From Segatella hominis (lineage in GTDB: Bacteria > Bacteroidota > Bacteroidia > Bacteroidales > Bacteroidaceae), in assembly GCF_019249725.2 (NCBI RefSeq), contig NZ_CP137559.1:2001001-2065000 (forward strand): a DNA stretch of 64,000 nucleotides. Direction: 5' to 3'. Below are positions 15,501-29,645 of the stretch, in pieces (position 1 is the first letter of the stretch; each line of letters starts with the position of its first letter). Made by a program: the position numbers and the translations under genes. The notes beneath the pieces are model-generated. The model did not search any database and was not told the DNA's origin. It was given only the letters and a program-made list of their open reading frames with translations.

Positions 15501-16044
15501 CGATAGCAGCTTTCTGCTCTTCTGTCATGCCAGGAAGGTTTGCCACCTTGGTTTGCAATGCCTCAAGAGCTTTTGTCTGCTCCTTCAAGTCAGCAGCAAT
15601 AGCCTTGCGAGCAGTCTCTTCATCTGTCAAGCCTTTGTCTAATCTTGCCAAAGTCTCGTTTACTGAAGCTAAATCTGCGTTCAATTTCTTGATGTCGCCC
15701 TTATTTGTGTCGATAGCAGCATTTACCTCTTTCAAGGTATTCTCTGCATTATCGATACGAGACTCAAGGCTTGACACCTTAGATGCGAGGTCTGTTACTG
15801 TCTTTGCGTCAGCTTTGTTTGCAATCGCTGTCTGCAATTGACCATCAGCTGCTTCCAATTGAGACTTAAGATCAGTGATCTCCTTCTCAAGGTCAGTCTT
15901 AATCGTCTTTAAGGTAGACAATGCATCAACTTGGCTCTGCAAGTTATTGATGTCGTCATCGTAATCCTTACAAGACGTAACTGTACTTGTGGCTGCAACA
16001 ACCATCGCACCCATAAGCAAAGCACTAAAAAACTTTCTTTTCAT
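12550..16044 (-). CDS. Large phase-variable surface lipoprotein A (coiled-coil stalk)
   Basis: 1164 aa. Signal peptide MKRKFFSALLMGAMVVAATS with lipobox TVTSC, then KDYDDDI, an acidic tag like the Bacteroidota lipoprotein export signals that send lipoproteins to the cell surface. Residues about 30-240 form long heptad repeats (LEKEITDLKSQLEAADGQLQ...), a coiled-coil stalk. The rest is beta-rich and aligns in outline with B and C: RSLTFIPEAYYWGVEAL (compare B LTSLVFMPKFYLDGIEMI and C LTSMVFAPTTYIDGIEAI), RQPIVRVTLVD, and the closing VPLEVTYEWGTVVTYADV. Proteins with this N-terminus are often labelled PL29-lyase N-terminal domain proteins; no lyase activity is evident. It lies behind the active invertible promoter, so it is predicted ON in this assembly. 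Confidence 0.85.
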   Translation of the reverse strand: MKRKFFSALLMGAMVVAATSTVTSCKDYDDDINNLQSQVDALSTLKTIKTDLEKEITDLKSQLEAADGQLQTAIANKADAKTVTDLASKVSSLESRIDNAENTLKEVNAAIDTNKGDIKKLNADLASVNETLARLDKGLTDEETARKAIAADLKEQTKALEALQTKVANLPGMTEEQKAAIDKQINDLQKTLQDQITELSSSITGNTTDIKTLKDETIPSLLKQIEGLNKELATLNVFVSSQLRSLTFIPEAYYWGVEALKAITLDYAYITDSKWAAASADKKEAVGYDNCERYDHAEGSTAKDLVAHYHMNPSTAVAPDFVTILDDDKNFETEGHVTRASAAGISVKSFAKNETTGQLDVTLKFNDPNKIKSVKNDSYITVFATQAKYANKQADKDTTVTSDYAAVYKTTITDLVLSHTKTGDENSFTGQENTCVKDFGNKYDNLHSTDNCTLDETKKLHLIPSVFDAMAIKYQDICQYDKTLDLSKLVETHYADANGNHKVLSAQELKDYGLEYKFELTASYEGTNKTSEAAHAAIKGTTFRPQFPKTDGKAYSWDEFDTEKAKELKEGKTEAEFSDYVRSHSVNRQPIVRVTLVDINNGNRVLDYGYIKIRISDKATEEIVKPNVVINYTGDPINYNSECVPAAFKFSTTWNQIEYDVLRTLNLHKAEFDANYENNGQLVINGRDVVKQFKPSTITTTKATEADELNPYVGVVVDNYDAESPETSTFTWTISSSELEKALYGKKSHDPFTVAVKYESKDKTKYPDLYIVLKTGAITIAAPSGEFLKADGSDRIKEYWYKDNGNSANDHGFAEIHAQTLSPEDPNAGSVAKNLDDRFSDVFAGNDIVLSSVTDVTSTKDFAPNKRHYNFVFSASNNGKKFNGIETLSTGDYQVVTWTLGVSADGKKLMAVEKNGVVITAQEIASIDGSYCDATGIKAQKISYAHTVAAHSLLNYVAHNKLADDVLKAIVALKVKTTVCEHELALTNKEFNVRFLRPINVAGVNKELEDAQDNKQMISLYDMVTLSDWRDYGFANHASYWTFYNIKDIRVIGNYNFGTESDQETGIINPFIYTTMTKGGQNNNTLDQKVKQSTISNQVLFRAVKDATATTGKAKYGYLLYENLSSTVQEFTVRVPLEVTYEWGTVVTYADVKIKNTHSNAKRF

Positions 16045-16128
16045 ACGATAAAAATTAATTAAACATTGTATATATTAACTACTTTATTCTATGCTTTTTC
16101 TCTCTATCTCCTGACGAGAGATATTATA
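16032..16128 (-). repeat. Leader repeat A of the inversion switch
   Basis: 97 bp almost identical to 17606-17702 and 29551-29645, but in the opposite orientation. It spans the 5' untranslated leader and the first four codons of lipoprotein A. The core TATCTC-TCGTCAG-GAGATA (16105-16123) is a 6-bp inverted repeat around a 7-bp spacer, the usual form of a tyrosine-recombinase crossover site. The element also contains GCATAGAATAAAG (16082-16094). Confidence 0.93.
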
Positions 16129-16136
16129 TTTCGGTG

Positions 16137-16168
16137 CAAACTTACACAAAAATATTGAAACATGCAAA
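16137..16168 (-). promoter_or_regulatory. Invertible promoter, currently reading cassette A
   Basis: Minus strand TTTG (16168-16165), exactly 20 nt, then TAAGTTTG (16144-16137): a full Bacteroidota promoter. The predicted transcription start falls at about 16130, at the outer edge of leader repeat A (16128), so the whole repeat is the 5' untranslated leader. The promoter lies inside the segment bounded by the repeats and would move with it on recombination. No full-consensus promoter is present at the corresponding places before leader repeats B and C. Confidence 0.88.
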
Positions 16169-16174
16169 TAAATA

Positions 16175-16209
16175 AAAGGATTTTTGAAAAAAAACATCAA
16201 AAATCCTTT
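16175..16209. terminator. Hairpin between the invertible promoter and the recombinase
   Basis: Perfect 12-bp stem AAAGGATTTTTG / CAAAAATCCTTT with an 11-nt A-rich loop, immediately upstream of the -33 box. It could insulate the promoter from read-through, or be a protein-binding site; a bidirectional terminator is the simplest reading. The rest of 16210-16400 is AT-rich with no gene seen. Confidence 0.55.
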
Positions 16210-27545: not shown

Positions 27546-27570
27546 AATTGTTCGATTTATAAACTGAAAA

Positions 27571-29319
27571 TTAATTTACTTCATCCATCCGAAAGAGTTT
27601 CCATCCATCGAACTGCATGATGATCTTATGCAATTGGGTACCTTGGCGAAGAGCCTCAACCCTTGGAGCCTCAGCATAATGCTTAATTTGCACCTCGGCA
27701 GCATCCCATTGCTGCTGGATGGCAGCCTCGTATGTCTCTTGACTCATACCTTTTTCTTTTTTGGGGATGAGTTTTAATTCCAAGATGTAGCAGTGCTTGG
27801 AGGCATAATGGGTCAAGTCTGGCAACAAGAAGAAGTCACAATAACCATGATTCAATTCCAACTCTGGTGCCGTCATGTAGTAAGCATTCAAGTTGAGGTA
27901 CGCCATGAAGAAACCTTGTATATTTCGCTCCGCCTCGATGCCGTCACGAACGGAAGATACTTTGGCGTACGAATCTGCCAGAAACTGCAAAGCGTCATGC
28001 CACTTGCCATCGTAGGCCATGTCATAAAAATAGTCTTCAAGTTGATTCGTATCCAAGGAAGCCTTTTCTTCATACTGCTCTAACAAATACTCGTAGTACT
28101 GCTTGCGTACATTATTATTAGGAATGCCCAATATAAGGCGACTTCCACGAGTACCCTTGATGGTCAACATTCCATAATAAAACAACAGACTGACAAACAT
28201 ATTGGGATTTGTCAAAGTCTCGGCTGGAAATGTCGTCTCTAAATTCGATATGATTTTCCCCTTCTCGGCTATTTCTAGTATAACTCCCTTACGATTGCCA
28301 TCCAGTTTGTCCAATTGAAGGAGTTTCTTCATCTTGTTATAATCAGTCTTGGTGTTTGGGTCTATCATCTCTTCAGGAGCTTCGCCAGTCTCAGCATAGT
28401 TCCGAAGATAATAAAGAACCATGTCGCAATTGAATACCTTGCTTTGGGTTTGCAAAGCATTCTTTGAGAAGCAATAGTTGTCATACCAAGGCTTCATTTC
28501 TGCGATTACAGATTCTACATCGCAATCGGGACGAACTTTTCCTGCACTCTTGAAATATTCAAACATCTCACGTACATCCTCGGCAGAGAACCCCAACATC
28601 TGATTGAAGGCTGGCTTTGTAGATATGTGCCAACCTATATTGAAGCCACTGGTTAGGTCGTCCAGGGTCACAGGACTGACTCCTGTCATGAAGATGCGAG
28701 TGAACATACCCTTGAACACCTTGAAAATCTCTCGATAAAAGCCTTTCGCATGGGTCAATGCCCAATACACCTTCTCGCCATGCTCGTTGAGCACGACATT
28801 GGTAAAGTTGTCATACTCGTCAATGATAAGATATAGCTGCATGTTTGCATCCTTTGCTTCGGTATCTATCATATTCAGCTTATCCACTGCGGTAGGGGCA
28901 CTCTTTATTTTCTCGACAATTTCAGGGCGGTAGGCCCTCTTATATCTTTCTATGAAATTATCGAGTCGGATGTTGCAATAATTATTGAAATTCTCCTTCA
29001 AATCCTTTATATCTCCCCCGATTTTAGAAAAATCCAAGAACAAGACCTGAAACTTTCCTCGGTAAGGTGTTGGATGGGAGCCAATCCATAATTTGCCGAA
29101 CAGTTCCTCAAACCTATCAGACTGGTTGATGTCATAGTAAGCACACATCATGCTCAGCAAGAGGCTCTTGCCGAAGCGACGAGGGCGTATGAAGAACAAG
29201 CTATCCGCCTCCTCTTCCAACTTAGGGATATACATTGTCTTGTCAACATAATATTGATTTCTCTTTATTATATCGACAAAGTCAGAAACACCGTAAGGTA
29301 TACGTTTCACATTCTCCAT
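27571..29319 (-). CDS. DUF1703 AAA-ATPase-like / PD-(D/E)XK nuclease-like protein (copy 3)
   Basis: 582 aa, paralogue of copy 2 with the same order: YYVDKTMYIPKLEEE, FFIRPRRFGKSLL, YLIIDEYDNFTNVV, GVSPVTLDDLTSGFNIGWH, and C-terminal ELNHGYCDFFLLP ... CYILELKLIPKKEKG. More distant from copy 1 (6041-7606). The start at 29319 lies 26 nt from a full promoter. Being enclosed between leader repeats B and C, this pair would be inverted together with cassette B when A and C leaders recombine, or lost if B and C leaders recombine. Confidence 0.85.
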   Translation of the reverse strand: MENVKRIPYGVSDFVDIIKRNQYYVDKTMYIPKLEEEADSLFFIRPRRFGKSLLLSMMCAYYDINQSDRFEELFGKLWIGSHPTPYRGKFQVLFLDFSKIGGDIKDLKENFNNYCNIRLDNFIERYKRAYRPEIVEKIKSAPTAVDKLNMIDTEAKDANMQLYLIIDEYDNFTNVVLNEHGEKVYWALTHAKGFYREIFKVFKGMFTRIFMTGVSPVTLDDLTSGFNIGWHISTKPAFNQMLGFSAEDVREMFEYFKSAGKVRPDCDVESVIAEMKPWYDNYCFSKNALQTQSKVFNCDMVLYYLRNYAETGEAPEEMIDPNTKTDYNKMKKLLQLDKLDGNRKGVILEIAEKGKIISNLETTFPAETLTNPNMFVSLLFYYGMLTIKGTRGSRLILGIPNNNVRKQYYEYLLEQYEEKASLDTNQLEDYFYDMAYDGKWHDALQFLADSYAKVSSVRDGIEAERNIQGFFMAYLNLNAYYMTAPELELNHGYCDFFLLPDLTHYASKHCYILELKLIPKKEKGMSQETYEAAIQQQWDAAEVQIKHYAEAPRVEALRQGTQLHKIIMQFDGWKLFRMDEVN

Positions 29320-29344
29320 GTTTATTTTATTTTCTGTTTTGCTG

Positions 29345-29375
29345 CAAAATTAAGCAAAAATATCGTAACCTCAAA
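29345..29375 (-). promoter_or_regulatory. Promoter of the DUF1703 gene pair
   Basis: Minus strand TTTG (29375-29372), 19 nt, TAATTTTG (29352-29345). It points away from lipoprotein C. Between it and leader repeat C (29376-29550) I see no gene, and only one-mismatch plus-strand -7-like words (CAGCTTTG 29403, TACATTTC 29439) without a proper -33 box. Confidence 0.8.
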
Positions 29376-29550
29376 ACTTTTCGCTTCATTTCTTTTATTA
29401 TGCAGCTTTGTCTTCGAAACGGGAGTCTGATTTATTTTTACATTTCTTGGGGTGATTTGCCTTGCGCAAGCTTCAACCTATCCTCCTTTTCGTCCATAAA
29501 GATCTACATCTGTACCTCCAAAACACATAGATTCTCCATATCAGCGACGA

Positions 29551-29645
29551 TAATATCTCTCGTCAGGAGATAGAGAGAAAATGCATAGAATAAAGTAGTT
29601 AATATATACAATGTTTAATTAATTTTTATCGTATGAAAAGAAAGT
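29551..29645 (+). repeat. Leader repeat C of the inversion switch
   Basis: 95 bp near-identical to leader repeats A (inverted) and B (direct). Core TATCTC-TCGTCAG-GAGATA at 29554-29572 is identical to that of A. It covers the leader and first codons of lipoprotein C. Upstream sequence differs completely from that of A and B, and shows no full promoter reading into C. Confidence 0.93.

Follow-up and report, generated by a model that had tools for sequence, protein, structure and literature searches.

A predicted promoter-recombinase module that may select among three surface-lipoprotein/OmpA cassettes in a Prevotella relative

Comparable switches at surface-protein loci

The sap surface-layer (S-layer) switch of Campylobacter fetus inverts a single promoter among several S-layer cassettes whose 5' ends are identical. 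The locus described here, in a 64-kb stretch of DNA from a Prevotella relative (Segatella hominis, contig NZ_CP137559.1, positions 2,001,001 to 2,065,000; “the window”), differs from sap, which mostly uses RecA-driven exchange in long 5' repeats and is not known to have a dedicated tyrosine recombinase. The window pairs one recognisable promoter with the gene for a predicted tyrosine recombinase; this module likely inverts via a 19-bp site common to three leader sequences, and its inversion would select one of three surface-lipoprotein/OmpA cassettes for expression.

The S-layer/OmpA operons of Bacteroides thetaiotaomicron (BT1927 and homologues) are phase-variable and linked to phage and complement resistance (PMC12118408, PMC12548429). 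Like these operons, the window combines large surface proteins and OmpA-family genes with a nearby site-specific integrase and a putatively invertible promoter, and the candidate site has the 5-7-5 layout of the Bacteroides inverted repeats GTTAC-N7-GTAAC, although the letters differ (ATCTC here; PMC12118408). Whereas each operon of B. thetaiotaomicron has its own invertible promoter, a single promoter would serve three operons in the window and carry the recombinase along. Any surface-layer kinship of the window products with BT1927 is a resemblance by description.

A second parallel is the Vpma/Xer1 system of Mycoplasma agalactiae, with which the window sequence shares one promoter, several apparently silent lipoprotein genes, the same site before each start codon, and a tyrosine-type recombinase gene inside the locus (PMC2268961, PMC5634654). 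Selection by inversion has a counterpart in two related genomes, G335 and G078, between which the promoter is joined to another cassette, and Vpma/Xer1 shows deletions too, as the model proposed below allows for the window (PMC2268961, PMC5634654). Vpma differs in belonging to another phylum and in comprising six single genes as opposed to operons ending in OmpA, and in the portions available its recombinase is not described as moving with the promoter. By analogy, the window locus would work like Vpma, with cassettes laid out like the S-layer/OmpA operons of B. thetaiotaomicron.

In Bacteroides fragilis, tyrosine recombinases likewise invert surface-protein DNA at the Tsr0667 SusC/SusD shufflon, which moves more than one gene set, and at the Tsr19 promoters; these systems differ in their SusC/SusD or polysaccharide cargo and in that one enzyme serves distant loci (PMC4747536). 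SusC/SusD Pfam matches were absent from the 17 window proteins scanned. A literature search that did not reach most subscription journals or any of bioRxiv turned up no account of a Prevotella or Bacteroidales locus of this kind.

Leaders, promoter and recombinase of the window

The three leaders lie at 16032..16128 (leader A, minus strand), 17606..17702 (leader B, plus strand) and 29551..29645 (leader C, plus strand). Over the 92 nt from the candidate site to codon 4, A matches B at 91 positions and C at 91, and B matches C at 90. Farther downstream, 14-20 identities per 20 nt persist until about +120 of the coding sequence (approximately codon 40), after which similarity drops to background; upstream of the site, the leaders are unrelated to one another. 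The resulting repeats are inverted for A-B (206 nt at 87%) and A-C (205 nt at 90%) and direct for B-C (211 nt at 89%).

At the head of leader A lies the predicted crossover site TATCTC-TCGTCAG-GAGATA (16105..16123, minus strand). Site C (29554..29572, plus strand) is identical to it, and site B (17611..17629, plus strand) carries one arm mismatch (AAGATA). With up to 3 mismatches permitted, exactly three copies occur in the 64 kb, all at leaders, of which the copy at A is inverted relative to the other two; 100 dinucleotide shuffles gave none.

The strict Bacteroidota promoter pattern applied here (TTTG-N17..22-TAnnTTTG), which covers one consensus, matches six times in the window, and just one of these matches precedes a leader: TTTG-N20-TAnnTTTG at 16137..16168 on the minus strand (read from 16168 to 16137), in front of leader A and facing cassette A. 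Leaders B and C have no strict promoter, the best matches before them showing 3 mismatches in the 10 fixed positions. The assembled arrangement would be read, in the model, as the “A on” state.

The recombinase gene (16496..17560, plus strand) is situated between leaders A and B and reads away from the A promoter towards B; its start codon at 16496 was chosen by hand, an in-frame upstream ATG being present at 16439. The protein belongs to the tyrosine recombinases by its integrase-family catalytic domain and motifs (Phage_integrase, PF00589, 3.2e-11; Phage_int_SAM_5, PF13102, 1.5e-18). It contains RGMS, ARHSW and GHNSEKTTQIYL stretches, which we take to be the catalytic motifs. Upstream of the gene, at 16405-16465, an imperfect palindrome repeats the GCATAGAATA letters of the leader in both directions, and could be an accessory binding site or an autoregulatory element. 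An initial annotation of this DNA had described three near-identical leaders with A inverted relative to B and C, a single full promoter at A, and a tyrosine recombinase between A and B; these observations are confirmed, and the interpretation attached to them is partly supported.

Module orientation, leader sites and cassette turnover among relatives

Of 398 genomes sampled from the genus, 75 contain relatives of the recombinase (E <= 1e-60). Around these relatives, 40 stretches of 7.5-20 kb were read, along with 20 further stretches picked by recombinase or OmpA matches; 29 of the 40 recombinase stretches yielded no lipoprotein or OmpA relative. A two-cassette form of the window plan, i.e., divergent lipoprotein genes with leaders, a recombinase between them and one strict promoter, occurs in five genomes (G168, G181, G400, G335 and G078). 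Together with the window and G035, where a divergent pair with one promoter is found, this makes seven loci, all of which have exactly one leader with a strict promoter. The silent leader of G335 has a one-mismatch promoter match 36 bases before the start codon, in AT-rich sequence. In all six loci compared, the window included, the promoter lies on the 5' side of the recombinase, so that promoter and recombinase would travel together, as the initial annotation had proposed.

Alternate orientations, for which a search of related genomes had been suggested, were found in the sister genomes G335 and G078. Their flanks are collinear, for about 20 kb to the left (87-93% within aligned blocks, with some gaps) and for 22 kb to the right (86-91%), and the promoter-recombinase module (84% identity) is inverted from one genome to the other. 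In both, the promoter stretch runs through CTCCCCGGCGGAGATTGC, with a few mismatches just before the site; past CTCCCCGGCGGAGATTGC lies the leader of lipoprotein 1 in G335 and that of lipoprotein 2 in G078. The two arrangements diverge at a palindrome heading the leaders, TCTC-N7-GAGA, and this points to a short palindromic exchange site in place of the whole leader favoured earlier. Promoter inversion by such a module is thus well supported, by sequence comparison, as a natural event in kin, and by extension it is likely in the window strain. In G078, the unselected left lipoprotein gene (L147, ~7600-8050) has a stop five codons in, which suggests that unselected coats decay.

The same pair bears on the possibility that general homologous recombination between the 200-bp repeats inverts the DNA and that the recombinase acts elsewhere. 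The repeats of the window (205-211 nt at 87-90%) would suit such a process, and in G168, a close recombinase relative, a perfect inverted repeat of 92 bp covers the start codon and excludes the site; the recombinase of G035 is located outside its pair of leaders, with an ATPase-like gene between them. In the window and its five two-cassette relatives, by contrast, the recombinase is placed between the leaders, and past the site the leaders of G335 and G078 match at only ~60-64%, whereas 17-18 of the 19 positions agree within the site. We consider homologous recombination a rather improbable driver, and the recombinase of the window presumably acts on the 19-bp site.

A wider comparison of leaders is consistent with this assignment. 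Where the stretch has a recombinase, 15 of 24 leaders carry the exact palindrome TCTC-N7-GAGA, versus 2 of 20 where it has none (Fisher p 0.0005, a guide only, as the leader sequences are related), the rate in base shuffles being 0.0015; other spacers, from 4 to 11, are found in at most 4 of the 24. These 44 rows derive from selected stretches, frames below 250 aa and duplicates having been removed, and 4 of the 20 control stretches yielded no row; row L179 (“without”) has only 58 bases upstream, and its contig does contain a recombinase, and row L151 (“with”) has only 55. A one-mismatch match to the site core in G035 (C24) falls outside the G035 locus analysed. Tyrosine recombinases are expected to need an identical overlap between partner sites, the letters of which are free. 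The 7-bp spacer is identical within the locus in six of seven multi-leader loci, the exception being G168, and the six loci with matching spacers show five different spacer forms.

The leader comparison also speaks to the view that the locus does not switch at present. The cassettes would then be duplicates homogenised by gene conversion, the promoters of B and C would have been missed by the strict pattern, and the palindrome would be a hairpin in the 5' mRNA. This view gains from the two leaders that carry the palindrome in stretches where no recombinase was found (L200 and L205) and from a strict scan that covers one consensus only. Against it stand the inversion seen between G335 and G078 and the strict promoter present in 18 of the 20 leaders from stretches without a recombinase, which makes its absence at B and C unusual. 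We regard the absence of any switch as the least probable of the alternatives, and very improbable overall.

A more credible alternative, though still an unlikely one, is that only a two-way A/B switch works. Cassette C would then be a relict or captured copy with a site that is seldom if ever used, and the main effect of B-C exchange would be loss of the B block. Cassette C lies 13.4 kb away from A, silent cassettes can decay, as the early stop in G078 illustrates, and contig-wide searches of six two-leader relatives gave two leaders in each and no third. On the other hand, site C reproduces site A exactly, leader C differs from leader A at 1 of 92 positions, and the reading frames of cassette C are open. 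Given its identical site, its near-identical leader and the lack of a promoter of its own, cassette C is probably used.

Beyond the missing third leader and the G168 repeat, several findings count against three-way inversion at the site. No second three-leader locus was seen among the relatives examined, site B has an imperfect arm, and the promoter-side leader of G168 lacks the site altogether. Because 2 of the 20 leaders read from recombinase-free stretches also have the site, it might serve as an mRNA hairpin as well, or be nothing else. The genes of the left cassette are not the same in G335 and G078, and G335 carries an extra 2.9 kb on the 3' side of the recombinase; the pair therefore demonstrates module orientation and not two states of an identical locus. 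Finally, in G001, the nearest genome compared (CAMBBY01, a metagenome-assembled genome labelled “uncultured Prevotella sp.”), the 3' end of the recombinase is followed by a different, fourth lipoprotein cassette. With these points weighed, we still hold it probable that the module inverts at the shared 19-bp site and thereby chooses one of three surface-lipoprotein/OmpA cassettes.

A scan of genome contigs retrieved G001 and one far match. Two stretches outside the locus are 95% and 99% identical between G001 and the window, and the OmpA protein of G001 is 87.5% identical to that of A, 84.4% to that of C and 81.0% to that of B. The possibility that G001 carries cassette A in the opposite orientation was dropped, as its lipoprotein is only ~27-31% like A or B; it is further weakened by the two stretches of 95% and 99% identity and by the flank past OmpA, which is not linked across contigs. 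The G001 cassette thus looks like a fourth one, in a genome that is 59% complete and cannot show absence of A, B or C. Its lipoprotein gene (L102, G001:C37, 1256-6341) is interrupted by three frames that, judged by eye, resemble an IS66-type element. In the related species G046, with flanking blocks at 73-92% DNA identity, one cassette lies between the same flanking genes, and no recombinase was found between them. Cassettes differ between near kin. The contigs of G428 and G832 stop inside leaders, as unresolved repeats would, and are not counted as proof; a scan of viral contigs with a leader stretch gave no matches.

Predicted states, cassette contents and implications

In the proposed switch, three upstream ends, P (promoter), R (recombinase 3' side) and U (upstream of C), would be joined to the downstream ends A, B and C. 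Enumeration yields six joinings. Inversion can reach four of these, all linear: one with A on, two with B on and one with C on. The other two lose the B block, which would be excised as an 11.9-kb circle comprising the B cassette and two AAA-ATPase genes. An A-B exchange would flip ~1.5 kb and an A-C exchange 13.4 kb. The latter would put B back to back with C around the module, and not with the leaders facing each other as had been assumed, and B-C exchange would then be an inversion. At present, B and C are direct repeats, and B-C recombination would therefore be a deletion. The earlier claim that all three states can be reached holds in the enumeration for A, B and C on, but it had missed this deletion.

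To its left, the locus is bordered by genes for MatE and a class-I tRNA synthetase (3418-5785), and to its right by the asparaginyl-tRNA synthetase gene (35789-37216). Between these borders, cassette A reads leftward and cassettes B and C rightward, each starting with a large lipoprotein gene and ending with an OmpA-domain protein of 377 aa. From strand and spacing, lipoprotein and OmpA-family gene appear to share an operon in all three. The lipoproteins of A, B and C (1164, 1163 and 1248 aa) have a signal peptide ending in SCKDYDDD; in the right-hand gene of G168 the signal-peptide start is kept and this motif is absent. Identity among the OmpA paralogues is 84-87%. The lipoproteins diverge more: those of A and B are 22-24% identical over their full length, those of A and C 25% across ~600 residues, and those of B and C resemble each other only in the first 49 residues and in one further short segment.

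The lipoprotein of cassette A (LipA; 12550..16044, minus strand) has a coiled-coil start and shows 95% identity to a 476-member protein cluster; a fold search with its model (predicted local distance difference test 77.6, predicted template-modelling score 0.44) returned no informative match. The rest of cassette A (7706..12508, minus strand) encodes a small protein and DUF1573-like, T9SS-sorting-domain, Lcl_C-domain and OmpA-domain (7706-8839) proteins. The lipoprotein of cassette B (17690..21181, plus strand) contains DUF4988 and a collagen-like stretch, and is followed at 21216..25703 (plus strand) by genes for a small protein, a Big_5-domain protein and the OmpA-domain protein (24570-25703). 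In cassette C, the lipoprotein gene (29633..33379, plus strand; coiled-coil start) is followed at 33465..35158 (plus strand) by those for a small protein and the OmpA-domain protein (34025-35158). AAA-ATPase_like/PDDEXK_9 genes are found three times at cassette edges (6041-7606, 25800-27545 and 27571-29319). The latter two, on the minus strand between B and C (25800..29319), would travel with block B. PADLOC gave no matches for the three AAA-ATPase proteins and the recombinase of the window.

Repeats of other kinds are found farther along the window. Between cassette C and asnS, 23-nt repeats occur in tandem and inverted (35454-35568), a predicted pseudouridine synthase gene contains a long run of 21-27-nt coding repeats (38027-38405), and three near-identical, putatively tRNA-like repeats stand in tandem at 40283-40597.

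The products of the cassettes are probably alternative outer coats with OmpA partners. A broader and more tentative idea, which we rate as possible but somewhat short of even, is that the module travels among three, and across strains more, coat operons, and that one site both picks the coat, through inversion, and exchanges coats by way of circles that are excised or captured. This would amount to a Prevotella coat-cassette exchange separate from capsule variation. The 19-bp candidate site, the nine predictable joins and the natural pair of opposite orientations make switching scorable in existing long-read and metagenomic data. Gut Prevotella are named in one paper as the exception among gut Bacteroidales, being without several alternative capsule loci (PMC12118408). 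Switching would alter what phages or hosts meet and, if true, coat switching would be another route for Prevotella to stay variable against phages and immunity.

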